Assembly: GCA_025350045.1 (NCBI GenBank)
Contig: JANXYM010000002.1
Span: forward strand, 1-64,000
Reading direction: 5' to 3'
Length of the DNA: 64,000 nt
Source: Methanomicrobiales archaeon
GTDB lineage: Archaea > Halobacteriota > Methanomicrobia > Methanomicrobiales > Methanospirillaceae
A program made the position numbers and the translations under genes. Numbering within the stretch: position 1 is the stretch's first letter; the number at the start of each line of letters is the position of its first letter. Shown piece by piece: positions 47,423 to 64,000 of the stretch. A model generated the notes under the pieces. It was not told the DNA's origin, ran no database searches, and worked only from the letters and a program-made list of their open reading frames with translations.

Positions 47423-48451
47423 TCAGACTTTTTTTGTGTGATACATATGCCAGATCCTGCAGGCACCTTCATGGCTGACCATGCAGGGACCGACAGGATT
47501 TCTCGGCGTGCAGACCTTGGCGTAGAGCTTGCAGTCTTCCGGCGTTGCTATCCCACGCAGCACCTTGTCGCAGACGCAGGCAGAGTGTTTGCTGATGTGT
47601 TTGAAGACAATATCGAATTTCTTTTGTGCATCGTACTGTTCGAATTCATTTTTAAGCCTGAGCCCGGAACCGGGAATTACCGGGAACCCCCGCCATTCCA
47701 CGTCAGAAATCTCAAAGACTTCATACATCACTTTTTTGGCTTTTACATTGCCCTCGCGTGACACCGCTCTCGGGTATGCATTGTCGACCCTGTGCGTCCC
47801 CTCTTTTACCTGTTTTACCAGCATGAGCAGCCCGAGCAGGATATCTTCCGGTTCAAAACCGGCAACCACCTGGGGTACCGGAAACTGCTCGTAATCTTCG
47901 TATCCCATGATGGTGCAGACATGTCCCGGAAGCATGAACCCCTGCAATTTTGCTTCGCCCTGTTCCAGCAGCCATTTCATGGCAGGAGGAACAATGCGAT
48001 GGCAGGAAAGTATGGAGAAATTTTTCGGAGGCCGTACGAGTATGGTTGCTGCAACCGTGGGTGCAGTCGTCTCAAATCCCACAGAGATAAATACCACATC
48101 TTTATCTGTTTTCTGTGCAATCTCCACTGCTTTATGGACCCCCTGGACCACCCGGACATCCCCTCCGCAGGACTCCAGTGAGCCCCTGGTTCCGGGAACC
48201 CGGAGAAGATCTCCATAAGTAGCGATGATGCAGTCCTTGTCAACAAGGTCGAGCGCCGCATCGATCTCACCCTGCGGGGTAATACAGACCGGGCATCCCG
48301 GGCCCATCACGATCTTCAATTGTTCGGGCAGGATACTGCGCAGACCGGACCGGGCAATCGATGCTTCATGAGTACCGCAGATATGCATGAAGGTCATATC
48401 CTGGTCTACTAACTCTGCAAGTGTCTTTGCGATATCAGTCCCCGTTGCCAT
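47423..48451 (-). CDS. hypD: hydrogenase maturation protein HypD
   Basis: FMHICGTHEASIARSGLRSILPEQLKIVMGPGCPVCITPQGEIDAAL. Confidence 0.96.
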   Translation of the reverse strand: MATGTDIAKTLAELVDQDMTFMHICGTHEASIARSGLRSILPEQLKIVMGPGCPVCITPQGEIDAALDLVDKDCIIATYGDLLRVPGTRGSLESCGGDVRVVQGVHKAVEIAQKTDKDVVFISVGFETTAPTVAATILVRPPKNFSILSCHRIVPPAMKWLLEQGEAKLQGFMLPGHVCTIMGYEDYEQFPVPQVVAGFEPEDILLGLLMLVKQVKEGTHRVDNAYPRAVSREGNVKAKKVMYEVFEISDVEWRGFPVIPGSGLRLKNEFEQYDAQKKFDIVFKHISKHSACVCDKVLRGIATPEDCKLYAKVCTPRNPVGPCMVSHEGACRIWHMYHTKKV

Positions 48452-48510: not shown

Positions 48511-49542
48511 ATGGATCTTAATTACATGTACGCAGCAGGAACGATTATTTTCGGGGTCCTGTTAGCCCTTATAGCCCGATGGGTTGTGGGATGGCTCAAA
48601 TCCCGGGCAGATGAGACGGAGACCCAGCTGGATGACATTATTGTTGCCGCGATCGGCACCCCTGTACAGGTTGCCATTGTTGTTATTGCAGTGTATTTTG
48701 CTATCAGTCGTTTCGGTATTCTGCCGGAAAACCTGCTATGGATCCTCGATCCACGGTATGTAACGGCATTTTATATCGTCATCATTGCCTGGATCCTCTC
48801 ATCATTCATCCATGACATCATGATGATTTACGGGCACAAACTTGCCTCATTATCTGATGGTGACTGGGACGACCGGCTGGTGGAGCTGCTTGTACTGGTC
48901 AGCAAATACGTGATCTGGTTTGTTGCACTCATGGCAATCCTGTCGGTCTTTGAAGTGAATATCACCCCATTCCTCGCTGGTGCAGGTATCGCCGGGCTGG
49001 CGGTCGCACTGGCTGCCCAGGACATCATATCCAATTTTTTTGGCGGTGCAATCATAACGGTTGACAAACCGTTCAAAGTTGGTGACCGTATCAAAGTGGA
49101 CACGTATTATGGAGATGTAATCAGTATCGGACCGAGAAGTACCCGCTTAAAAACACTGGATTACCAGATTGTGACAATACCCAACAACAAGATTACCACC
49201 AATATTGTCATAAATTATGCCGAACCGGATCAAAAACTCAGGATCTCCCTGCCGGTTACCGTGGCTTATGGCAGCGATCCCAAAAAAGTAAAAGAGATCC
49301 TCCTTGCCATCGCACAAAATACCATCAAAAAAACCGAATATCTTCTTGAAGAACCTGCACCCAAAGCATTTTTCCTGGAGTTCCAGGAATCCAGCCTGAA
49401 GTTTATCCTCTACGTATGGGCCCGGAAATACAATCTTCCCGATGAAGTAAAAGATGCAATTAACATCCAGATTGCGGAACGATTTGCCGCAGAAGGTATC
49501 GAGATCCCCTTCCCGCAGATGGAAGTACGGTTAAAAAAATAA
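48511..49542 (+). CDS. MscS-family mechanosensitive ion channel
   Basis: FLAGAGIAGLAVALAAQDIISNFFGGAIITVDKPFKVGDRIKVDTYYGDV. Confidence 0.93.
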   Translation: MDLNYMYAAGTIIFGVLLALIARWVVGWLKSRADETETQLDDIIVAAIGTPVQVAIVVIAVYFAISRFGILPENLLWILDPRYVTAFYIVIIAWILSSFIHDIMMIYGHKLASLSDGDWDDRLVELLVLVSKYVIWFVALMAILSVFEVNITPFLAGAGIAGLAVALAAQDIISNFFGGAIITVDKPFKVGDRIKVDTYYGDVISIGPRSTRLKTLDYQIVTIPNNKITTNIVINYAEPDQKLRISLPVTVAYGSDPKKVKEILLAIAQNTIKKTEYLLEEPAPKAFFLEFQESSLKFILYVWARKYNLPDEVKDAINIQIAERFAAEGIEIPFPQMEVRLKK

Positions 49543-50419: not shown

Positions 50420-51690
50420 ATGTACGTCCAACTAATTCCTGACAAATATCCGTTTATCAGGCGATGTATGAACTCCCCCAAAATCCCAAAAACCGGCACT
50501 GCAAAAAGAAAGTACATTTTTGCTTCGAGAATGGCAAAAACGCCAAAATCCTTTATCCGTGAGATACTCAAAGTTACTGAAAACCCGGATATCATCTCCT
50601 TTGCCGGGGGGCTTCCCAACCCTGCGCTCATCGATGTTGAAGGAATTGCCCGGGCCACAGCCTGTGTCCTGGCTGAAGATGGCCGGTCCGCTTTACAGTA
50701 TTCCACGACTGAAGGATATCTGCCGCTCCGCCAGTTTATCGCAGAACGGTATAGGAAAAGGCTGGGCTTATCGGTATCTCCTGCAGAGATCCTGATCACG
50801 AACGGGTCCCAGCAGTGTCTTGACCTTATTGGCAAGGTTTTTATCAATATGGGGACTCCATTGCCATAGAACGGCCCGGCTACTTAGGTGCAATCCAGGC
50901 ATTTTCTCTGTATGAACCGCTCTTTCATACGGTAAATCTTGACGACGATGGACCTGATACCGCTATGCTTCGTGAGGTCTGTCGTCACAACAGCATACGG
51001 TTGTTCTATGGGGTACCGAATTCCCAGAATCCTTCGGGAATCACTTACTCACTTGAACGACGAAAGGAGATCGCAGGTATCCTTGAAAAAACCGATGCCC
51101 TGTATATTGAAGATGATGCTTATGGGGAACTGAATTTCTCTGGCAACTCCCTGCCCTCTATGAGGAATTTTTTACCGGAACAGACTCTCATTACCGGTTC
51201 ATTTTCAAAAATACTTTCTCCGGGCATGCGACTGGGGTGGATTGTTGCCCCCCCGGAAATTATGGAGCAGATTGTCATTGCAAAGCAGGCATCGGACCTG
51301 CATTCCAATTATCTCTCACAACGAATTGCCTTTGAGTACCTTCAACAAGGAACCATCGAAATGCATATCAAAAAAATCCAGCTTGCGTACAAAAACCAGT
51401 GTGACTGTATGATCCGGATAATGGGCGAGACATTTCCTGAATCGGTTACCTATACCCGGCCGCATGGGGGGATGTTTGTCTGGGTTACCCTGCCGGATGG
51501 CTGTTCATCGATGAATATTTTTGAAGCTGCTTTAAAAGAACATATTGCCGTATTACCTGGTACACCCTTTTATGTTGACGGTGGCGGGAATAATACCCTG
51601 CGACTGAATTTCTCAAACTCCACTGATGTAAAGATCAGTGAGGGAATGAAGCGCCTTGCACAGGTTATCAAAAAACAGTGCAGGATATAA
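50420..51690 (+). pseudogene. PLP-dependent aminotransferase (fold I), split by a 1-nt frameshift near 50851
   Basis: ORFs 50420-50869 (...LDLIGKVFINMG) and 50965-51690 join as ...FINMG/DSIAIERPGYLGAIQAF...REVCRHNSIRLFYGVPNSQNPSG...GSFSKILSPGMRLGW. Confidence 0.8.
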
Positions 51691-51808: not shown

Positions 51809-51868
51809 CTAAGTACTGCCGCGTGAAAAACTAACATCCGATACTTATCGTGCGAGGTAAAAAAATAC

Positions 51869-54800
51869 ATGAATAAGAGTGATGCTGAAGCAATGTTGCG
51901 ACAGGGCATCGAACTCTATGACCTTGGCAGGTTCCATGAAGCCATCGTCATGTTTGATCGTGGGCTTGCACTGTTTCCCAAACTGGCAAAAGCCCATTAT
52001 TTTAAAGGAATCGCCCTGTACGATCTCGGGAAATTTGAAGAGGCTGTCACCGCATATGATCTTGCCCTGTCAATCGAACCCGGAGATCCCAACGCATGGT
52101 ATAACAAAGCGGCAACATTAGCCCAGATGAACCGGAATGAAGAAGCCCTTGATGCCTGTGAGCAGTTGCTTTCAATACGGTCTGACAATGCCGAAGCCTG
52201 GATTTTGAAAGGTATTGCATTATATGAACTGGGGCGGTTCAAAGAGGCAATCAGTGCGTACGACCATGCACTTACCATCGATCCGAAACACGCAAAAGTA
52301 TTCTACAACAAAGGTATTGCCCTCGGTGATATCGGCAGGCACCATGAAGCAATCAATGCGTACGACAAAGCAATTGAAATTGTACCCGGATATGCCCGGG
52401 CGTACTATAACCGCGGGATATCCCTGTATGAAATCGGAAAATATGATGAAGCGCTGAAAGCCTTTGAAAAGGCCCATGAACTGGACCCTGCTGATATATG
52501 GGTCTGGTATTACCGCTGTTTTATACTGGCAAAACAGGAGCGGTATGAAGAAGCTGCACAATCAGCAGCAAAATTTCTCGAACATGAGCACGATCATGCA
52601 GATATCTGGACCATTAACGGCATTTCACTGGTGAAAATAGGAAAATTTGGGGATGCCATAACCGCACTCGATCAGGCACTTTTACTCAATCCCCAGGTAG
52701 CAGATGCATGGTATCACAAGGGACTTGCCCATAATCAGCTTCAGCAATACAGCGATGCAATCAGTGCCTTTGATAAAGCTGCAGAACTCAGCCCTGCCCA
52801 TGCCCAGACCTACTATAACCGGGGTATAGCCTATGCATTCCTGAACGACTATGATCTGGCGGTGCAGGATTTCGACCGGACTCTTTCCTTCGATCAATCG
52901 AATGCCGATGCATTTTATTTAAAGGGAGTTTCCAGCATCAACATCAGCAGTTATGATGAAGCCCTTGAAGCGTTCAACCATGCAATAGAGCAAAATGAAG
53001 ACCATGCTGCATCCTATTATTACCGCGGAGTTGCGCTCACAAGGCTGGGCAGGTACAAAGATGCCCTTGACTCTTTCGATTCTGCGCAGACTCTTGATCC
53101 CGAATGTGTACCAGCAATGTACCAGAAAGGATTATCCTATGCACATCTCGGTCGTTTTGCTGAAGCAATAACTGCCTATGACTTTGCACTACAAATTCGT
53201 CCGGCTTATGCGGATGCATTGTACCACAAAGGATTTGCTCTGGCCCGGCTGGGGAGAAATACTGAGGCAATAGGTGCATTTGATCAGACCCTTGCAGAAC
53301 AGCCCCAAAATCCCCAGGCCTACCACCAGAAGGGCCTCCTGCTGGCAAAACTCGGGAAATACGAAGATTCGGTTGATGCATACTTAAAAAGCATTGAGAT
53401 AAAGCCTTCTTACGCACAGGCATTCTACGACCTGGGTCTTGCCTATGCAAAGCTGGAACAGCCTGCCGAAGCAATCAAAGCATTTGAAAGCGCAATTGCT
53501 ATCAATCCTAATTATGTAAATGCCTATTATAACCGGGGACTGGCCTTTGCCAGTCTCGGCCAGTACCGTGAGGCATTCGATGCTTTTGACCAGGCTGCAG
53601 AGATCGATCCTTCCCATACGCTGACTCTTTACCAGAGGGGCATCATGCTCATGCATCTGGAAAGCTATGATGAAGCCCTGGATGCATTTGACTGCGTTCT
53701 TGCTCTTTCCCCCCAGAATGCCGGTGCTTTGTATGAAAAAGCGATGGCGCTTGTGCACCTCAGCCGGCTTGAAGAGGCAATTCTGGTCTTTGATGAAGCT
53801 CTTGAGCAGAATCCCTCGCTGATCAATGCCTGGTTCCATAAAGGTATAACCCTTGCATCACTTGGCATGCAGATCGATGCGATCGTAGCATTCGATAAAG
53901 TAATTATCTTAAATCCAAAACATGCCGAAGCATCTGTGCGCAAGGGAATTGCACTCGTAAACCTTAACCGGTTTGGCGAAGCGATCGTCCTTTTTAACCG
54001 CTCCCTTGAAGATAACCCGCGGGACGTCTGGGCATGGTGCTATAAAGGTGTTGCACTTCTCTCCCTGAATCGTTGCGATGAGGCAATACGGTCATTTGAT
54101 AAGGCAGTAGAGATCAACAGCCAATTCTCCTATGCCTATTATGAGCGGGGCAATGCACTGCTTCTCACCAACCGGTTGCAGGAAGCAATAGGCTCCTATG
54201 ATCTGGCACTTGATATCGAACCGGATAATGAAGAGGTTCTGTTCCAGAAAGGTCATGCACTGATAAAAAATGAACAATATGATGAGGCCATAAAGACTTT
54301 TGAGCTCGTTATCGCCCGTGATTCCCGGAATATCGATGCACTCTATGAAAAAGCGCAGGCTCTTTTTCACATCGGGAGATTCAAAGACGCTGTGCTGGTT
54401 TTCGACACGGTAATTGATATTGACCCTGCGTATCTCAAAGCCCAGTACTTCAGAGCAAAATCTCTTCTTTTAATAAATAATTATGACGATGCCGTGATTG
54501 CATTCGACCGGGTACTGGCCATCTCTCCTCTGGATGTAGCTGCTGCTTATGAAAAGGGTACAGCCCTCCTGCACCTCCGGCGTTTTGAAGAGGCAAATAT
54601 CTCCTTTAACCAGGCCCTTGAACAAGATCCGGCCCTTGTTGATGCCTGGCTAAAGAAGGGTATTACTCTCTCACACCTTGGGTTGGGAGAGAGATCTGTT
54701 GAAGCGTTCGAGAGAGCAATTGCCCTCAATCCCCAGCTCACGGAAGCCACGGTCAAAAAAGGAGTAGCGCTCGTCAATCTTTCCCGGTATTCAGATGCTG

Positions 54801-57800
54801 TTACTATCCTCAATCTGGCGCTGGAAGACGATGCCGGAAATATCTTGGCCTGGTATTATTCGGGTCTTGCCCTTGCCGCTCTGGATCAGACTGCAAAAGC
54901 AGTAAAAGCATTCGACCGGGTTCTGGAGATCAACCGGCGCTGTGCTCCGGCATGGTATGAACGGGGAATTGCACTTGCACGCATTGGTAAACATCTTGAA
55001 GCGGTCCTTTCTTATGATCAGGCACTCGAAATCTCACCGGATGATCCTCATACACTCTATCATAAAGGACTTGCTCTTGCCCAGCGTGAACGGTATGATG
55101 ATGCGATAAAGGCATTTGAACGTGCAATAACGTTTCAGCCTGAAAACGGCCCTGCATATTATTACCTGGGAATCTCCCTGGCCGGGCGGGAACGTTACGA
55201 TGAGGCCATACGGGCTTTTGACCAGGCGCTCCACATCGATCCTTCCAATGCGCCGGCCTACCACTTCCGGGGGATTGCTCTCATCCAGTCGGAAAGATAT
55301 GAGGATGCGGTCAGCACTTTTGAACAGGCTATTGAGCGGGATCCGGCAAATCCGCAGTCATATCATTATCTGGGCATTGCCTATCTCCAGTCAAAGCACT
55401 ATGAAAATGCATTGGATGCACTTATCAAATCAACAGACATGGATCCATCACTTTCTGACGGGTACATGTACCAGGGTATGGCATTTGCCCATCTCGACCG
55501 CCATGAAGAAGCAGTAGTAAGCCTTGACAAGAGCCTGTCTGCAAATCCTTCCCAGATGGAGGCGCTGATCTACCGGGCGGAATCCCTGATCTATCTCAAA
55601 CGATATGCGGATGCCATTGAAACTGACGATCATATCCTTTCATTAAATCCCACTCTTGTTGATATCTGGATGCAGAAAGGAACTGCATATGTCAGCCTGG
55701 GCAAAAAACCTGAAGCCCTGATCGCATTTACCAAGGCACTCGAGATAGATTCGAACCTTTCCGAGGGCTGGGTGAAAAAAGGGCATGTTCTCTATGATAT
55801 GGGAAAAACACAGGATGCAATTAATGCTTATACCCGTGGCCTTGACATAAATCCTTCGTTACAGGATATCTGGATCAGGAAAGGCGATGCCTTAAACGAG
55901 CTGGGAAAAACGGATGATGCCATTGTTGCCTACGCCAAAGCGGTAAAAATCGATCCGGGTAAGGAGGATGGATGGGTAAAAAGTGGCAGGGCATACTATG
56001 ATCTGGGAAGGTACCAGGATGCCATCGATGCATTTGACAATGCCATCACTTTAAACCAGCGAAGCATCGAGGCTTTCCATTATAAAGGACTGTCACTGGA
56101 AAAAATTAACCGGGTAGAAGAGTCAATCCATGTATTTGAGGTGCTTCTGGAAATTGATCCTGCCAACAGTGATGCCCAGTACCATAAAGGTCTTGCACTT
56201 GCAAAACTCGGGGATCACCAGGATGCAATTGTTGCGTATGATAAGACAATTGCACTCCAGCCCTCTGCCCAGGTATGGTACTACAAAGGCCGGTCGCTCA
56301 CAGAGATTGGGAAATATAAGGATGCGATTGATGCCTTCAGCTCTGCACTGGCGATAGAACCAGCCCTCACTGAAGCCTATTATTATCGGGGATATTCCTA
56401 TCTTAAACAGGGTAAATACCCAGAAGCGATCGATTCGTTTGACCGCAACCTTGAGCGTGATTCGAGCAATGCACAGGGATATTTTAACCGGGGTATCGCA
56501 CTCCAGAAACTTGACCGGCATAAAGAGGCCCTTGAGGCTTTTGATAAGGCCCTCATTTACGATCCTGAAAATGCCCTTGCTTTTTATCACAAAGGGCAGT
56601 CGTATGCATACCTGGAGATGTTCAGTGAGGCCGTTTTTTCCTTTGATAAAACGCTTCGTCTCAAGCCAAAATATACTGACGCACGGCTGAAAAAGGGGCA
56701 GGCCCTTTATCATCTGGGGAAACTTCGGGAATCTATTAAGGATTTTGACCGGACTATCCATGAGAATCCCCGAAATTCTTTTGCCTATTACCACAAAGCC
56801 CGTGCCTTGTCCGATCTTGGGAATTTCACTGAAGCCAATGAAGCCTTTGACAGGGCTCTGGAGATCAACCCGGCCCTGATCGAGGCACATCTCCATAAAG
56901 GACTTGGACTTCTCAAACTTTCCCTGTTCGACGATGCCGTACTGTCCTTCGATCTGGCGCTGGAGATCGATCCCGATCTCCAGTCTGCGCATTATCACCG
57001 CGGCTATGCACTGGCAAAAACCGGCAGGTATAAGGATGCAATAACCGCATTTGACCGGGCTCTTTCGCTGCTTCCGACAGATGTGTCGGCAGTCTACGAG
57101 AAAGGATTGTCCCTTTACTCCCTTGGACTGTATCGTGATGCACTTGACTCATTCGACCGCACACTGGAACTCAAACCCCAGACTGCAGATGCGGCGTTTT
57201 ACAAAGCGCTGGCACTGCATGATCTGGGACGCAATGAGGATTCCCTTGCTTCTGCCGAGCGGGCAATAGAGATCAATCCGGATTTTTCCGGGGCATGGTA
57301 CCGGAAAGGTGTTGCCCACCTGGATCTTGAACAATATGACAAGGCCGTCGAAGCATTAAACCGTACCATCGAACTGGACAAGACCAATGCCCAGGCACAT
57401 TTCGATAAGGGACTGGCTCTTATTCATCAGGAAAATCCTGCAAAAGCAATCGAATCCTTTGATCAGGTACTCGATCTCATTCCCGGGTATGCTCCCGCAT
57501 TCTATCAGAAAGGAATCGCTCTCAGCCTCATTGGCATGTATGAAGAGGCGGTACTATCCTTCAATATCGCTCTTGAAATTACTCCTGATAATGCAGATGC
57601 ACTTTACCAGAAAGGGAGAGCACTTGCCCACCTTGAGAATTACCCCGGGGCAATTATTGTTTTTTCCGAGGCTAACAAAATTGAACCAAAGAGAGCAGAT
57701 ATCGTTTACCAGAAAGGTCTCTCCCACGCATTATTGGTTCAGCACGATGATGCAGTCGTATCATTTGACCGGGCGCTTGAAATTGATCCGGGATACACCG

Positions 57801-60800
57801 ATGCCCTGTACCAGAAAGGCCTTTCTCTTGCTGAACTGGGGAGATTTGCTGAATCCATTGATGCATTATCCCGGACACTTGAGACGCGTCCAAAGATTGC
57901 CAATGCCTGGCTGATCAAAGGATTCTGTCTTGCTGCCGAAGAGCGTTACCAGGAAGCAATCCTGTCGTATAATAATGCACTCGATATTGAATCAAACAAT
58001 GCTCATTCATGGTTTTACAAAGGGAGGGCGCAACTCAGTCTCGATGCTCTTTCTGATGCAGCAGGTTCATTCGACCAGGCTTTGGTTAACCAGCCTGCAT
58101 TTGGGGAAGCCTTTTATTATAAAGGTGTTGCTTTGTTCCGTCTGGGAAATTTTTCAGACGCTGCCGCTGCTTTTGAACAGGCAAATGGCCTGATTCCCGA
58201 TTTCGAACCTGCATATCTTCAGAGAGGTCGGGCACTTTTTGTACTGGAACGATATCCGGAAGCTGCGGAGGCTTTCAGCAAAGTCATAGCCGATGATCCG
58301 AAAGATATCATCGCGCTCTATGGGCAGGCACGTGCATTTGATAAACTGGAGTCTTATGACAATGCAGTCCAGTCATACAACCGGGTCAACAGTCTTGATC
58401 CTTCCTGTGAACGGGCATTTCTCTATAAAGGCATGGCACAGGTAAAACTGCAACACACGCTAGAGGCAGTGGAATCTTTTGACCATACCCTTGAGATCAA
58501 TCCGGTAAACATTGATGCCCTGAGTGGCAAAGGTAGATCTTTAGTCGAACTCCGGATGTACGAAGAGGCAGTGAAAAGCTTTGATGCACTTCTGGCCATT
58601 AATCCCGACACTGTAGATATCCTTTATGAAAAGGGACTTGCATTAACCCGCATGAAAAGGGCAGATGCTGCACTTGAAGTGTTCAACCAGTGTATAGCCC
58701 TCGGGCTGGATACCTCACGGGTTCATGCAGAGAAAGGATTTGTACTCTTTGAACTGGGGAAGTATCCCGATGCGGTTCTTTCGTTTGACCGTGCACTTTC
58801 TGTTGACAGCAATGATGCACCCTCCTCCCTTGCAAAAGGTATGGCGCTTGCAGAGATCGGACTGCATAATGATGCGATTTCCGCATTTGATGCAGCACTC
58901 CTGATCGATCCGGAGAACGGACAGGCTCATAGGGGGCGTGGCATATCTCTTGTTAAACTCAGGAGATATGAAGATGCAGTCATATCCCTCGATCATGCAC
59001 TGGAGTACGATAAGGCAAATCCGGATATCCTTACGTGCAAGGGTTACTCACTCTATCGTCTGAACCGGTTCAAGGAATCAGTAGAGGCATTGGGAAAATC
59101 CTTAAAACAGAGACCCCAGGATATCAGGACCCTGTTCTTCCGGGCAAAAGCCTATATGCACCTCAAACGGTGGGAAGATGCAATCACGCTTTTTGAAAAA
59201 GTATTGGCTATTGATCCCCGGCACGCGGCTGCGTGGTATTACAAAGGGCTTGGATATGCCAAGATGGTCTTGTTCGACGATGCGTTACATGCATACGAGA
59301 ATGCGCTGGTAAACGACAGCTCGTGTGTTGTGGCATGGTTCGAAAAAGCAGAGACCCTCCAGAAGACAGAACGATTCGAAGAATCACTTCCGGCATATGA
59401 TCGCACCCTTGAACTCAACTCCCGGCATCAGAACGCAGCCTATCACAAAGGACTTGCACTTTTTATTCTGGGTCGGAATGATGAAGCGATTGGTGCTTTC
59501 GATCAGGCACTTACCATTGGGGGTGAAACCTCCCGGATCACGTTCAGTCGTGGCCATGCACTTATGGTTGCCGGACGGTACCAGGAGTCCTTATCCTCCC
59601 TGGACCGGTCAATTGAACTGGAACCCGACGATTCAGCCTCATGGTACGAGAAAGGACAGGTAATGGCTTTACTGGGGGATTTCAGGGGCGCTGTTAGCGC
59701 TTTTGAAAAGACCCTGGAGATGAATCCAAAGGATGCTCATGCAGCGTTTGGTAAAGGTGAGGCGCTCTTGGCACTTGGCCAGAATGAAGACGCCATCACT
59801 GCTTATGGTATGACATTGTCTCTGGACTCCGCATTCGCTGACGCAGCGTATGGAAAAGGACTTGCCCTTGCACATCTTGAAAATTATCCTGAAGCCATTA
59901 AATCCTTCGATTATACCCTTGAATATGTTCCTGAACATGCCAGAGCACATTACCAGAAAGGACTCTCCCTGAATATAATCGGAAAATATGAAAAGGCAAT
60001 CCGTGAATTCAAAACAGCACTGACTCAGGAATCTTCTCTTTACGATGCGATCTACCAGTCCGGTCTGGCATATGCCCAGCTGGGCAAACATGAAAATGCC
60101 CTCCGTGCTTTTGATCAGATGCTGGAACACAGTCCGGTAAATGCCCCGGTATTATATCAGAGAGCGCTCGCTTTGACCAAACTTCACCGGTTCGAAGAAT
60201 CACTTCCCGCTCTCGATCTTGCACTTGAATTCAATCCTGATCTTCCTGATACTGCGTACCAGAAAGGACTTGTACTTGCTACCCTTGAACGGTATGAAGA
60301 AGCAATTACTGCCTTTGAAAAGGCAATTACACTCGGTCAGGATGATGCACAGATTCAGTTCAATCTTGCTCATGCACTTCTGGTCATCGGCAGATACAAG
60401 GAAGCATTACATTCCCTGAACCGATCGATCGAATTCGCACCTGATGACGCTGGCACATGGTTTGAGAAAGGACAGGTACTGGCATTGCTGGAAGATTTCA
60501 GTGGTGTTGTTGACGCATTTACCCGGACACTGGAACTGAGTCCAAAGGACGCACATGCGGCATTTGGTAAAGGTCAGGCTTTATGCAAACTTGGACGGGA
60601 TGAAGAAGCAATCAGTGCATTTGATCTGACATTATCCCTGGATTCCGCATTCGCTGACGCAGCGTATGCCAGGGGGCTTACCTTTGCCCATCTCGGAAAT
60701 TATCCGGGAGCGATCAAATCATTTGATTACACTCTCGAATACCTTCCGACTCACGCCGGGGCACATTACCAGAAAGGACTCTCGCTGATGGCAATCGGAA

Positions 60801-63800
60801 AATATGAAAAAGCCATCAAGGAATTCAAGACCGCGCTGGCACATGATTCGTCTGTTCATGATGCGATCTATCAGTCCGGCCTGGCATATGCACAACTGGG
60901 CAAACCGGAAAATGCCCTGCAGTTATTTGATAAAATGCTGGAGTTATCTCCCGATGATGCAACGGTTATGTACCAGCGGGCGCTTGCCTTAACAAAACTC
61001 AACCGGTTTTCTGAAGCACTTACCCCCATTGAATCCGCTCTGGATCGTGAAAACAACCGGGCTGAAGTCTGGATTCTTAAAGGGAGTGCACTGTATGAAT
61101 GTGAACGATACCTAGAATCCCTGGATGCATTTGACCGGGCTCTGGCCTTAAAACCCGATGACAGCACTTCCTGGTACCGGAAAGGAAAATCATACCTTCA
61201 GCTGGAAAGGACCAAAGATGCAATACAGTGTTTTGACCGGGTACTGTCGTCAGATCCTGCATGTGCTCCGGCAGGGTTCAGAAAAGGGAGTGCCCATCTC
61301 TCGATGGGAGAGTTCGGACCCGCGGTCGATGCACTCTCCCAGGCTCTTGAGATCAGACCCGGGTCGGCAAACGGATGGTATGACCGTGGCATTGCCCTCT
61401 TTGAACTCGGCCGATTTGAAGAAGCTGTGGCATCATATGATCACGCGCTTGCCATCAACCCGAAATATGCCAACGCCTGTTATGATAAAGGGGTTGCCCT
61501 TACCCGCCTGAACCGGGATATGGATGCGATCAGTGCGTTTGACCGGGCAACGGGAATTGATCCCCATTTTGCAACGGCATTTTTTGACACGGGTCTTGCC
61601 AATATCAGACTCTCTTATTACAAGGAAGCTATAACCGCTTTTGATAAGGGTATTTTGATTGATGCATCATATGCCCCGGCCTATTACCACAAAGGCATGG
61701 CACTAGTTCACATAAAAAAATTCAAAGAAGCAATCGGTTCATTTGATAATGCAATCAGTCTTGACGGTGGCAATTATGAGGTCTGGTATAACCGAGGTCT
61801 TGCTCTCACAGAAACCCGCCAGTTTGAGCGGGCCGCAGAAGCATTCGACAAAGCAATCGGTTTCAATCCGGAGAAATATGATCCATACTTCGAAAAAGGC
61901 TGTACGCTCTTCCGGTTATCCCGGTATGAGGATGCCATTGTAGCATTTTTGCAGGCACTTTCCCTTGATGACAGCCAGCGGGATGGGCACTATGCAGCAG
62001 CTCGCACGTATGTGGTTTTACGCAGGTTCGAAGATGCCGTGCACTCTTTTGACCGTACAATCGCCTGTGATCCCGGTTTTGCTGACGCATACCTGGCCAA
62101 AGCTCTTGCTCTGGAAGAACTTGGGCGATTTGATGAGGAGATAACGACCTTATCATCCATGCTCTCGCTCAATCCGGCACATGCTGCTGCGTGGTACCAT
62201 ACCGGGTTTGCCTATGAACGTCTTTTGAAGGATGAAGAAGCAGTTGCAGCATTTGAGAAGGCCAGAACCGGTGATCCCTACAATATCTCTCTTCTCTTGT
62301 CGGAAGGAAGGATTTTAGGAAGACTGGAAAAATATGAGGATGCGATTCATATCCTTGATATCGCTCTCGGCCGTGAACCAGACAATGGAGAGATACTTTT
62401 TGAAAAAGGCCAGGCTCTCGCCAGGCTTGAACGATATGATGAATCAGCAGACACTCTTGCAGCAGCAGCAGCACATCTGCCCCGGCGGTTCGAACCACCC
62501 TATGAACAGGGACTCTCTCTGGTAATCCTTGGCAGGTACGAAGAGGCTGCTGCTGCTTTCGATACGGCACTTCTTCTCAATGGGACGAATCCAGCTATCT
62601 GGGCAGAGAAAGGTTCAGTGCTCCTGCATCTCACGCGCTATAGTGAAGCTATCGATGCATTATCCAAAGCCACGTCCTATAATCCTGACGATCACCGGGC
62701 ATTTCTTGAACAGGGCATGGCATTTGCCCATCTTGGGAAGATGGAAAATGCCCTCAGGGCTTATGATCGTGTCATCCAGCTCAGGCCCGGAGATGCTCGT
62801 GCATTATATGAAAAAGGCCTTGCCCTGTTCCATCTTAAAAAGTTTACAGAAGCGGTCAGGACCCTGGAGGAATCTCTTAAAGCAGTACCCGATAATACCG
62901 CTGCACTTTATTATCGATCGGCAGCATTGGCCGAAGCCGGAGACTATGTAAAATCAGCAGAAGCATACGGACAGTTGCTCTCTCTTACACCCGACAATGC
63001 AGATGCATGGTTAGAGCAGGGACTTATCCTCGCAAAGATCGACCGGCATGATGAAGCAGTTATGGCATTTGATCAATGTCTGAGTTTCAAACCAGATTCC
63101 TTCGCAGCAGTCTATAATAAAGCCCGCTCCCTGGATCTTCTTCACCATACAAAAGAAGCAATTACCGGGTATACCCAGGCGCTCTCTCTCGATCCTGCGC
63201 ATGCAAAAACGCACCACTTCAAGGGTATAGCCCTCTACCGCCTCGGACGGTTTGAAGAGGCTGCAAAAGAGCACGATCTGGCACTGGAAATCGATCCTGT
63301 GTTTGGTGAAGCACTTTATCACAAAGGGCGTTCACTGGCGGCCATGGGCATGTACCGCGAGGCAGTAAAAACATTTGAAAAATCATTAGTAATTGAGAAA
63401 AATTATGCTGCAGTATATTTCGATAAAGGTCTCGCACTTGCCCACCTGGGACGGCATGAAGATGCGATAATTGCATTTAACAAGAATATTGATCTCGACT
63501 CTGGTAATGCCCAGGCCTATTATAACAAAGGTCTGTCCCTTGCTGCCACCGGACTGCTCACGGATGCAATTGACGCATTCGATCGTATGCTTCACATCGA
63601 TCCCTTATCGATTGACGGGGGATTGCATCGTGGGCGGGCTCTGGCCGATCTCTCCCGATACAATGATGCAATTGAAGCTTACGTAAGGGTATTGGAGATT
63701 GATACATCCAATGCAGAGGCGTGGTACCTGAAAGGCAGTGCGCTTTATGCTCTCGGAGGGTACGAAGATGCTATTGAAGCATATGCCCGTGCGCTGGAGA

Positions 63801-64000
63801 TACGTCCGGATTATGTACTGGCCTTTTATGATAAGGGTCGTTCTCTCTTCCAGCTGGGTATGTATAAAGAGGCAACATTATCGTTTGAAAATGCCCTGTC
63901 CATTGAACCAAAAAATATTGATGCCCTGTACCAGAAAGGACGTGCACTTATCCTGCTCGGACAGTATGAAGATGCAATTGCGGCATTTGATCCAGCCCTG
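51869..64000 (+). CDS. giant TPR-repeat protein, >=4044 aa, about 119 TPR units, continues past the window end
   Basis: ATG 51869 preceded by GAGGT (51854-51858); frame read codon by codon to about 56.1 kb without a stop, spot-checked beyond; last codon ends exactly at 64000 (QYEDAIAAFDPAL); ORF track lists no terminated ORF in this frame here, as expected for a run-off ORF. Confidence 0.95.
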   Translation, partial: MNKSDAEAMLRQGIELYDLGRFHEAIVMFDRGLALFPKLAKAHYFKGIALYDLGKFEEAVTAYDLALSIEPGDPNAWYNKAATLAQMNRNEEALDACEQLLSIRSDNAEAWILKGIALYELGRFKEAISAYDHALTIDPKHAKVFYNKGIALGDIGRHHEAINAYDKAIEIVPGYARAYYNRGISLYEIGKYDEALKAFEKAHELDPADIWVWYYRCFILAKQERYEEAAQSAAKFLEHEHDHADIWTINGISLVKIGKFGDAITALDQALLLNPQVADAWYHKGLAHNQLQQYSDAISAFDKAAELSPAHAQTYYNRGIAYAFLNDYDLAVQDFDRTLSFDQSNADAFYLKGVSSINISSYDEALEAFNHAIEQNEDHAASYYYRGVALTRLGRYKDALDSFDSAQTLDPECVPAMYQKGLSYAHLGRFAEAITAYDFALQIRPAYADALYHKGFALARLGRNTEAIGAFDQTLAEQPQNPQAYHQKGLLLAKLGKYEDSVDAYLKSIEIKPSYAQAFYDLGLAYAKLEQPAEAIKAFESAIAINPNYVNAYYNRGLAFASLGQYREAFDAFDQAAEIDPSHTLTLYQRGIMLMHLESYDEALDAFDCVLALSPQNAGALYEKAMALVHLSRLEEAILVFDEALEQNPSLINAWFHKGITLASLGMQIDAIVAFDKVIILNPKHAEASVRKGIALVNLNRFGEAIVLFNRSLEDNPRDVWAWCYKGVALLSLNRCDEAIRSFDKAVEINSQFSYAYYERGNALLLTNRLQEAIGSYDLALDIEPDNEEVLFQKGHALIKNEQYDEAIKTFELVIARDSRNIDALYEKAQALFHIGRFKDAVLVFDTVIDIDPAYLKAQYFRAKSLLLINNYDDAVIAFDRVLAISPLDVAAAYEKGTALLHLRRFEEANISFNQALEQDPALVDAWLKKGITLSHLGLGERSVEAFERAIALNPQLTEATVKKGVALVNLSRYSDAVTILNLALEDDAGNILAWYYSGLALAALDQTAKAVKAFDRVLEINRRCAPAWYERGIALARIGKHLEAVLSYDQALEISPDDPHTLYHKGLALAQRERYDDAIKAFERAITFQPENGPAYYYLGISLAGRERYDEAIRAFDQALHIDPSNAPAYHFRGIALIQSERYEDAVSTFEQAIERDPANPQSYHYLGIAYLQSKHYENALDALIKSTDMDPSLSDGYMYQGMAFAHLDRHEEAVVSLDKSLSANPSQMEALIYRAESLIYLKRYADAIETDDHILSLNPTLVDIWMQKGTAYVSLGKKPEALIAFTKALEIDSNLSEGWVKKGHVLYDMGKTQDAINAYTRGLDINPSLQDIWIRKGDALNELGKTDDAIVAYAKAVKIDPGKEDGWVKSGRAYYDLGRYQDAIDAFDNAITLNQRSIEAFHYKGLSLEKINRVEESIHVFEVLLEIDPANSDAQYHKGLALAKLGDHQDAIVAYDKTIALQPSAQVWYYKGRSLTEIGKYKDAIDAFSSALAIEPALTEAYYYRGYSYLKQGKYPEAIDSFDRNLERDSSNAQGYFNRGIALQKLDRHKEALEAFDKALIYDPENALAFYHKGQSYAYLEMFSEAVFSFDKTLRLKPKYTDARLKKGQALYHLGKLRESIKDFDRTIHENPRNSFAYYHKARALSDLGNFTEANEAFDRALEINPALIEAHLHKGLGLLKLSLFDDAVLSFDLALEIDPDLQSAHYHRGYALAKTGRYKDAITAFDRALSLLPTDVSAVYEKGLSLYSLGLYRDALDSFDRTLELKPQTADAAFYKALALHDLGRNEDSLASAERAIEINPDFSGAWYRKGVAHLDLEQYDKAVEALNRTIELDKTNAQAHFDKGLALIHQENPAKAIESFDQVLDLIPGYAPAFYQKGIALSLIGMYEEAVLSFNIALEITPDNADALYQKGRALAHLENYPGAIIVFSEANKIEPKRADIVYQKGLSHALLVQHDDAVVSFDRALEIDPGYTDALYQKGLSLAELGRFAESIDALSRTLETRPKIANAWLIKGFCLAAEERYQEAILSYNNALDIESNNAHSWFYKGRAQLSLDALSDAAGSFDQALVNQPAFGEAFYYKGVALFRLGNFSDAAAAFEQANGLIPDFEPAYLQRGRALFVLERYPEAAEAFSKVIADDPKDIIALYGQARAFDKLESYDNAVQSYNRVNSLDPSCERAFLYKGMAQVKLQHTLEAVESFDHTLEINPVNIDALSGKGRSLVELRMYEEAVKSFDALLAINPDTVDILYEKGLALTRMKRADAALEVFNQCIALGLDTSRVHAEKGFVLFELGKYPDAVLSFDRALSVDSNDAPSSLAKGMALAEIGLHNDAISAFDAALLIDPENGQAHRGRGISLVKLRRYEDAVISLDHALEYDKANPDILTCKGYSLYRLNRFKESVEALGKSLKQRPQDIRTLFFRAKAYMHLKRWEDAITLFEKVLAIDPRHAAAWYYKGLGYAKMVLFDDALHAYENALVNDSSCVVAWFEKAETLQKTERFEESLPAYDRTLELNSRHQNAAYHKGLALFILGRNDEAIGAFDQALTIGGETSRITFSRGHALMVAGRYQESLSSLDRSIELEPDDSASWYEKGQVMALLGDFRGAVSAFEKTLEMNPKDAHAAFGKGEALLALGQNEDAITAYGMTLSLDSAFADAAYGKGLALAHLENYPEAIKSFDYTLEYVPEHARAHYQKGLSLNIIGKYEKAIREFKTALTQESSLYDAIYQSGLAYAQLGKHENALRAFDQMLEHSPVNAPVLYQRALALTKLHRFEESLPALDLALEFNPDLPDTAYQKGLVLATLERYEEAITAFEKAITLGQDDAQIQFNLAHALLVIGRYKEALHSLNRSIEFAPDDAGTWFEKGQVLALLEDFSGVVDAFTRTLELSPKDAHAAFGKGQALCKLGRDEEAISAFDLTLSLDSAFADAAYARGLTFAHLGNYPGAIKSFDYTLEYLPTHAGAHYQKGLSLMAIGKYEKAIKEFKTALAHDSSVHDAIYQSGLAYAQLGKPENALQLFDKMLELSPDDATVMYQRALALTKLNRFSEALTPIESALDRENNRAEVWILKGSALYECERYLESLDAFDRALALKPDDSTSWYRKGKSYLQLERTKDAIQCFDRVLSSDPACAPAGFRKGSAHLSMGEFGPAVDALSQALEIRPGSANGWYDRGIALFELGRFEEAVASYDHALAINPKYANACYDKGVALTRLNRDMDAISAFDRATGIDPHFATAFFDTGLANIRLSYYKEAITAFDKGILIDASYAPAYYHKGMALVHIKKFKEAIGSFDNAISLDGGNYEVWYNRGLALTETRQFERAAEAFDKAIGFNPEKYDPYFEKGCTLFRLSRYEDAIVAFLQALSLDDSQRDGHYAAARTYVVLRRFEDAVHSFDRTIACDPGFADAYLAKALALEELGRFDEEITTLSSMLSLNPAHAAAWYHTGFAYERLLKDEEAVAAFEKARTGDPYNISLLLSEGRILGRLEKYEDAIHILDIALGREPDNGEILFEKGQALARLERYDESADTLAAAAAHLPRRFEPPYEQGLSLVILGRYEEAAAAFDTALLLNGTNPAIWAEKGSVLLHLTRYSEAIDALSKATSYNPDDHRAFLEQGMAFAHLGKMENALRAYDRVIQLRPGDARALYEKGLALFHLKKFTEAVRTLEESLKAVPDNTAALYYRSAALAEAGDYVKSAEAYGQLLSLTPDNADAWLEQGLILAKIDRHDEAVMAFDQCLSFKPDSFAAVYNKARSLDLLHHTKEAITGYTQALSLDPAHAKTHHFKGIALYRLGRFEEAAKEHDLALEIDPVFGEALYHKGRSLAAMGMYREAVKTFEKSLVIEKNYAAVYFDKGLALAHLGRHEDAIIAFNKNIDLDSGNAQAYYNKGLSLAATGLLTDAIDAFDRMLHIDPLSIDGGLHRGRALADLSRYNDAIEAYVRVLEIDTSNAEAWYLKGSALYALGGYEDAIEAYARALEIRPDYVLAFYDKGRSLFQLGMYKEATLSFENALSIEPKNIDALYQKGRALILLGQYEDAIAAFDPAL
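53680..54916 (+). repeat. internal TPR block duplicated at 816 nt (8 units)
   Basis: YEKAMALVHLSRLEEAILVFDEALEQNPSLINAWFHKGITLASLG... (from 53732) vs YEKGTALLHLRRFEEANISFNQALEQDPALVDAWLKKGITLSHLG... (from 54548). Confidence 0.8.
59400..61032 (+). repeat. tandem duplication of an 8-TPR (816-nt) block; boundaries approximate
   Basis: gcattcgctgacgcagcgta at 59831 and 60647 (816 apart); KDAHAAFGKG, LTLSLDSAFADAAY/TLSLDSAFADAAY, AIKSFDYTLEY, AHYQKGLSL, DAIYQSGLAYAQLGK shared. Confidence 0.9.

Follow-up and report, generated by a model that had tools for sequence, protein, structure and literature searches.

The gene studied here, from the methanogen Methanoregula, encodes a giant archaeal protein that is made of TPRs alone, and its length changes among orthologs almost exclusively in steps of eight TPRs, which corresponds to one turn of the CTPR superhelix. 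We read the protein as a cytosolic TPR superhelix that may serve as a scaffold or ruler and whose length would be selected in whole turns; we give this reading a probability of about one half.

The giant TPR gene occupies positions 51869-65734 of the source contig (C58, 87,587 bp) and codes for 4,621 aa up to a TAA stop codon, with a computed mass of 515 kDa and a computed pI of 5.2. Its features are given below by position in the window (the whole stretch of DNA that was analysed, 64,000 nt), unless C58 is named.

51854..51858, + strand: SD-like GAGGT, 10 nt 5' of the ATG, as read from the sequence
51869..64000, + strand: window portion of the giant TPR gene, coding for residues 1-4044 (end of the gene at C58:65734)
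51869..51904, + strand: N-terminal 12 aa (MNKSDAEAMLRQ), helix A start of the first TPR
51905..52618, + strand: units 1-7, the most conserved stretch of the protein by ortholog comparison
53639..54862, + strand: site of an older duplication of an 8-repeat block, where units 18-21 resemble units 26-29
56189..56287, + strand: unit 43, 33 aa rather than 34 by the repeat profile
59348..60163, + strand: copy 1 of a younger 8-TPR tandem block (816 nt), units 74-81
60164..60979, + strand: copy 2 of the younger block, units 82-89
65060-65158 of C58, + strand: second 33-aa unit by the repeat profile

Re-reading the sequence confirmed two statements of the earlier note, namely the stop-free frame from ATG 51869 through 64000 and the SD-like site. 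The start codon is supported because the N-terminal end is kept among orthologs. The frame had also been described as still open at the window end. This does not apply to C58, where extension past 64000, as had been advised, led to the TAA that ends at 65734 and to no C-terminal domain. In agreement with what had been noted for the window, the 4,621-aa protein contains neither a signal peptide nor a domain other than TPRs. It also lacks a C-terminal cap, and the Pfam matches of the window part are TPR and TPR-like solenoid models only.

By every test made, this is a TPR protein. We looked for 34-aa helix-turn-helix repeats with a W/L-G-Y/L-A-F/Y-A-P pattern. PF00515 matches with 1891 bits, the dominant repeat positions are 8 G/A, 20 A, 24 F/Y, 27 A and 32 P, and a structure model of residues 1-658 contains the stacked antiparallel helix pairs of TPRs. 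A profile built from the protein's own repeats yields 133 units of 34 aa and 2 units of 33 aa in an unbroken register; the proposed checkpoints at 51905, 53741, 55373, 56087 and 56189 are all unit starts, and the single 33-aa unit reported near 56189 is unit 43. The protein begins and ends with complementary half-units of 12 aa and 21 aa. Together they form one TPR, so that the total is 136 TPRs (135 full units and 1). The C-terminal residues stop within helix B, without a capping helix. The coordinates and register given in the earlier note proved exact, but the near-perfect 34-aa register is common to the whole ortholog family and not special to one species.

The repeats have a mean identity of 30%, and Tandem Repeats Finder detected no DNA-level array in the gene. 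Hence, the repeat copies have diverged, and a collapse of repeats during assembly is unlikely. Units 22-29 form an 8-unit block that the 112-TPR and 120-TPR species lack. The two copies of the younger block (units 74-81 and 82-89) share 66% identity in amino acids and 71% in DNA, and the 144-TPR species carry this block one additional time.

A homologue search in Methanoregula and its relatives with a comparison of copy number, which had been recommended, returned orthologs with 112-159 TPRs. A 3,000-aa query detected the giant gene, with long stop-free frames and identities of 50-83%, in nearly all of the Methanoregula genomes tested. Of 39 Methanoregula genomes, 30 match the N-terminal 255 aa, as do at least five from the sister genus, there over the full query with 69-73% identity. 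Nearly all orthologs start like MNKSDAEA and end like ILDTIGKHEEAKICYEK. Full-length intact frames are present in 24 other genomes, closed Methanoregula chromosomes among them, and the worry over an assembly artefact was therefore not borne out. A search for orthologs beyond these two genera gave only generic TPR similarity (~33-47%), and a scan of the viral collection with a neighbour gene as query gave no match. Possible gene losses in G017, G049, G045, G046, G047 and G023 were not taken as such, as these drafts break or lack the locus.

The locus runs in the order hypD, mscS, aminotransferase and giant gene, towards which a small TPR gene, a methyltransferase gene, dnaJ, dnaK and grpE converge. 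The sister genus has this order too, as do most genomes whose flanks are long enough. Gene-order comparison placed the three upstream neighbours.

47423..48451, - strand: hypD, conserved upstream neighbour
48511..49542, + strand: MscS-type channel gene, conserved upstream neighbour
50420..51690, + strand: aminotransferase gene, directly upstream of the giant gene
C58:65804-66451 (L004:2804-3451), - strand: gene of a small TPR protein (215 aa) that converges with the giant gene and is conserved next to it in both genera

The frame of the aminotransferase is broken once here (~50850) and is single in relatives; it is either a pseudogene or affected by a sequencing error. Another irregularity concerns Ca. 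Methanoregula pelomyxae, an amoeba endosymbiont (G016 = CP121470). Its giant gene has a near-identical tandem copy of 16 TPRs (1,632 nt) at ~1909000-1912400 on the - strand (L041/L042), with several frame changes that reflect decay or an assembly fault.

Nei-Gojobori dN/dS of the giant gene is 0.113, 0.089 and 0.088 in three pairs and stays at 0.08-0.15 in each stretch along the gene. The shared locus, the shared ends and a dN/dS of ~0.1 together mean that the giant gene is real, of old origin and subject to purifying selection along its entire length.

We counted the TPRs of 25 full-length orthologs, and 20 of them have 112, 120, 128, 136 or 144.

112 TPRs: G048, G053
120 TPRs: G003, G010, G011, G014, G019, G040, G052
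128 TPRs: G018, G021, G043, G054, G070
136 TPRs: G000 (source genome), G001, G015, G042
144 TPRs: G006, G008
Exceptions: 121 (G064, G065), 134 (G022), 151 (G005) and 159 (G041) TPRs

The exceptional counts stem from steps of 7 and 17 TPRs. Viewed without alignment, ortholog lengths are 3806, 4078, 4349, 4621 and 4893 aa, with differences of 271-272 (8 x 34). Unit-level alignments of all pairs gave indels of 8 (330), 16 (51), 7 (50), 15 (49), 1 (25) and 24 (12) TPRs; indels of 1-6 and 9-14 TPRs combined amount to ~44. Units of one and the same protein resemble each other most at offset 8 (z up to 13), and all runs of at least four alike units occur at offsets 8 (23), 16 (5), 15 (4), 24 (1) and 7 (1). 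The 7/15 offset pattern is limited to one clade, and the other block duplications among orthologs lie at 8 or its multiples. Growth by a fixed multi-domain block, a trait expected of a nebulin-like ruler or scaffold, is found here with offsets 8/16/24.

On a tree built from the two protein ends, the TPR count changed at least 11 times. A list of indels between sister species, read by hand, contains ten of 8, two of 7 and one each of 16 and 17 TPRs. With uniform sizes of 1-17, multiples of eight would be this frequent with a probability of ~1.5e-8, and a conservative 6/9 gives 2e-4; both values are illustrative because the indel events were read by hand. When pairs with at least 50% identity are removed, only a weak residue of the offset-8 similarity is left, so the growth by eights does not extend demonstrably to the ancient array. 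The earlier note had offered repeat-driven length evolution as one explanation. Length does vary (112-159 TPRs), but this account is incomplete: the steps span roughly one superhelical turn (8 TPRs, in rare cases 7) instead of a single repeat, and they take place under strong purifying selection.

The AlphaFold check that had been proposed was made for residues 1-658, and the model has a pLDDT of 94.6, shows regular helix pairs and fits the consensus TPR superhelix. Another model, computed from a single sequence for a later stretch of 1,156 aa, reached a pLDDT of 40 and is not usable. The geometry is therefore modelled for the first seventh of the protein. In Foldseek, the model of residues 1-658 superposes on 9qhb, a 16-repeat CTPR crystal structure, with 1.4 Å over 269 columns (TM 0.95 by target) and on 8chy, an '8-repeat consensus TPR superhelix', with 1.8 Å. 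The predicted backbone of the first 658 aa is CTPR-like, and the turn size is taken from published CTPRs. Eight CTPR repeats form one turn with a length of 7.2 nm and a width of 3.8 nm (PMC12060649), and for the TPR superhelix 7-8 TPRs per turn with a pitch of ~72 Å are given (PMC4191447). As the model matches CTPRs and a CTPR turn has 8 TPRs, the length step would equal one turn, and the exceptional steps of 7 and 17 would also come close to whole turns (one or two). With 7.2 nm for each turn, a length of ~122 nm is calculated for 136 TPRs. A period-8 spectral test of charge, size and hydropathy gave no clear or consistent signal; hence, no sided face is seen. The structural part of the earlier 'very long continuous superhelical scaffold' is upheld by the unbroken register, the 658-aa model and purifying selection, and the scaffold function is what we infer.

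If consensus geometry holds throughout, the protein would be a single-chain superhelix of 136 TPRs with nominally 17 turns, ~120 nm x 4 nm in size. Its inner groove, formed by the A helices, would hold one partner protein or several at consecutive points along its length, and the conserved first and last repeats would be the anchor points. When a whole turn (8 TPRs) is gained or lost, everything beyond it would keep its rotational position. Hence, whole-turn changes would be nearly neutral and tolerated, and part-turn changes would mostly be removed. The counts 121, 134, 151 and 159 speak against strict whole turns. Positions in a TPR can be classed as groove-facing or outer. Repeat-specific conservation is 0.45 at the groove-facing helix A positions (2, 5, 6, 9, 12 and 13) versus 0.28 at outer helix B, and a paired test of groove against outer positions on raw identity is statistically weak (p = 0.049).

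Tentatively, and with less than even confidence, we propose a natural solenoid whose gene length is selected by its own superhelical turn, a ruler or filament subunit of 100-143 nm in which rotational phase would be selected. If this turn-phase reading is true, the bare repeat ends, which have no capping helix, would permit end-to-end stacking of molecules.

The main rival to turn selection is templated recombination. Here, a chance duplication of eight repeats would be followed by unequal recombination or conversion that adds or removes only eight, with no selection of turns. Many later changes do lie at sites that already have 8-repeat copies (units 74-97 and 87-120), and repeats often expand by blocks of several domains, in nebulin by seven (Bjorklund et al., PMC1553488). 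However, 8-repeat blocks arose at separate places (~units 18-30, 38-58, 74-89, 80-98 and 87-120), each of which needs its own first event, and in block-free orthologs (the 112 and several 120 types) no earlier offset-8 template block is detectable. Recombination therefore explains later changes at one site and not the origins, and as the full cause of the eights we consider it rather unlikely, although the data separate selection from mutation only in part.

A purely mutational step of eight is also opposed by other TPR arrays of the same archaea, which grow by 1-2. The Methanoregula arrays L060 (G015:C3; 3,032 aa) and L059 (G004:C14; >1,784 aa, up to the contig end) have top offsets of 1 and 2, a 6,719-aa array of another family has top offsets of 1-4, and a second TPR protein of the sister genus (L128, L129 and L130; ~71 repeats) has mixed offsets and a constant length in three genomes. 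With offsets of 1-4 or mixtures in these controls, TPR arrays of these archaea do not normally change by eight. In L060 and L059, adjacent repeats are 61-63% identical, with growth by one or two repeats. The 6,719-aa frame (G025:C6:153775-173934, + strand; L047-L049) comes from the same order, has ~197 TPRs and no 8-repeat blocks, and has partial relatives in G129 and G130. Within the order, the studied gene is thus surpassed in size by another array of this kind.

The giant protein might also be a chaperone-related hub, i.e., a co-chaperone or holding platform for the neighbouring DnaK-DnaJ-GrpE. Most genomes with enough flank place the giant gene beside the small TPR gene, the methyltransferase gene, dnaJ, dnaK and grpE. 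It lies on the opposite strand, however, converging and with other genes between, and is thus outside the dnaK operon; in M. boonei (G011) and G016, moreover, the flanks read did not reveal the dnaK side. Such a role is improbable. An assembly artefact or dead gene, which could be suspected from the source draft of 121 contigs, the broken aminotransferase frame and the frame changes in the Ca. Methanoregula pelomyxae ortholog, is refuted for the ortholog family by the intact frames in 24 other genomes, closed chromosomes included, by a dN/dS of ~0.1 and by the lack of DNA-level tandem repeats that could collapse, and has a negligible probability.

If length is selected in whole turns, as in our scaffold-or-ruler reading, the family is a natural experiment on the purpose of a superhelix. 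With 25 orthologs that differ stepwise in length, several of them from closed genomes, ruler, spring and filament models could be tested directly. The family would also be a rare case in which the evolutionary step size of a repeat protein is its structural period. No paper on the giant TPR family was found in the open-access literature, and little is known of what archaeal TPR proteins do (PMC11514114). New in this family are its size, the lack of any other domain, one locus conserved across two genera and the turn-sized step.

Among known systems, MamA of the magnetosome is likewise a prokaryotic TPR-only scaffold and gives the best-scoring NCBIfam model, but it has five TPRs and self-assembles (PMC11514114). 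Identity with MamA was rejected, given 136 TPRs and no magnetosome genes among the neighbours examined (hypD, mscS, aminotransferase, methyltransferase and dnaK genes). Human TTC28 and TTC21B are long TPR proteins as well, with 28 and 19 repeats (PMC11514114); they are eukaryotic and have several times fewer repeats. In general, the repeats of long TPR proteins that have been reviewed number in the tens, versus 112-159 in the giant family. OGT and SPINDLY (1w3b, 7y4i) share with it a continuous natural TPR superhelix and match it in sequence and fold. In contrast to the giant protein, they have far fewer repeats plus a catalytic domain.

Nebulin has a fold unrelated to TPR, and its block matches the thin filament rather than a solenoid turn of its own. 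It is the nearest precedent, as a giant array enlarged by a fixed domain block (seven; PMC1553488). CTPR superhelices (PDB 8chy, 9qhb and 2fo7) have the same 34-aa register without insertions, and the model superposes on 9qhb and 8chy as given above. Bare repeat ends are a further likeness, the natural protein being without a C-terminal solvating helix. CTPRs are designed, with identical and far fewer repeats, whereas the giant protein is natural, diverged and 112-159 repeats long.
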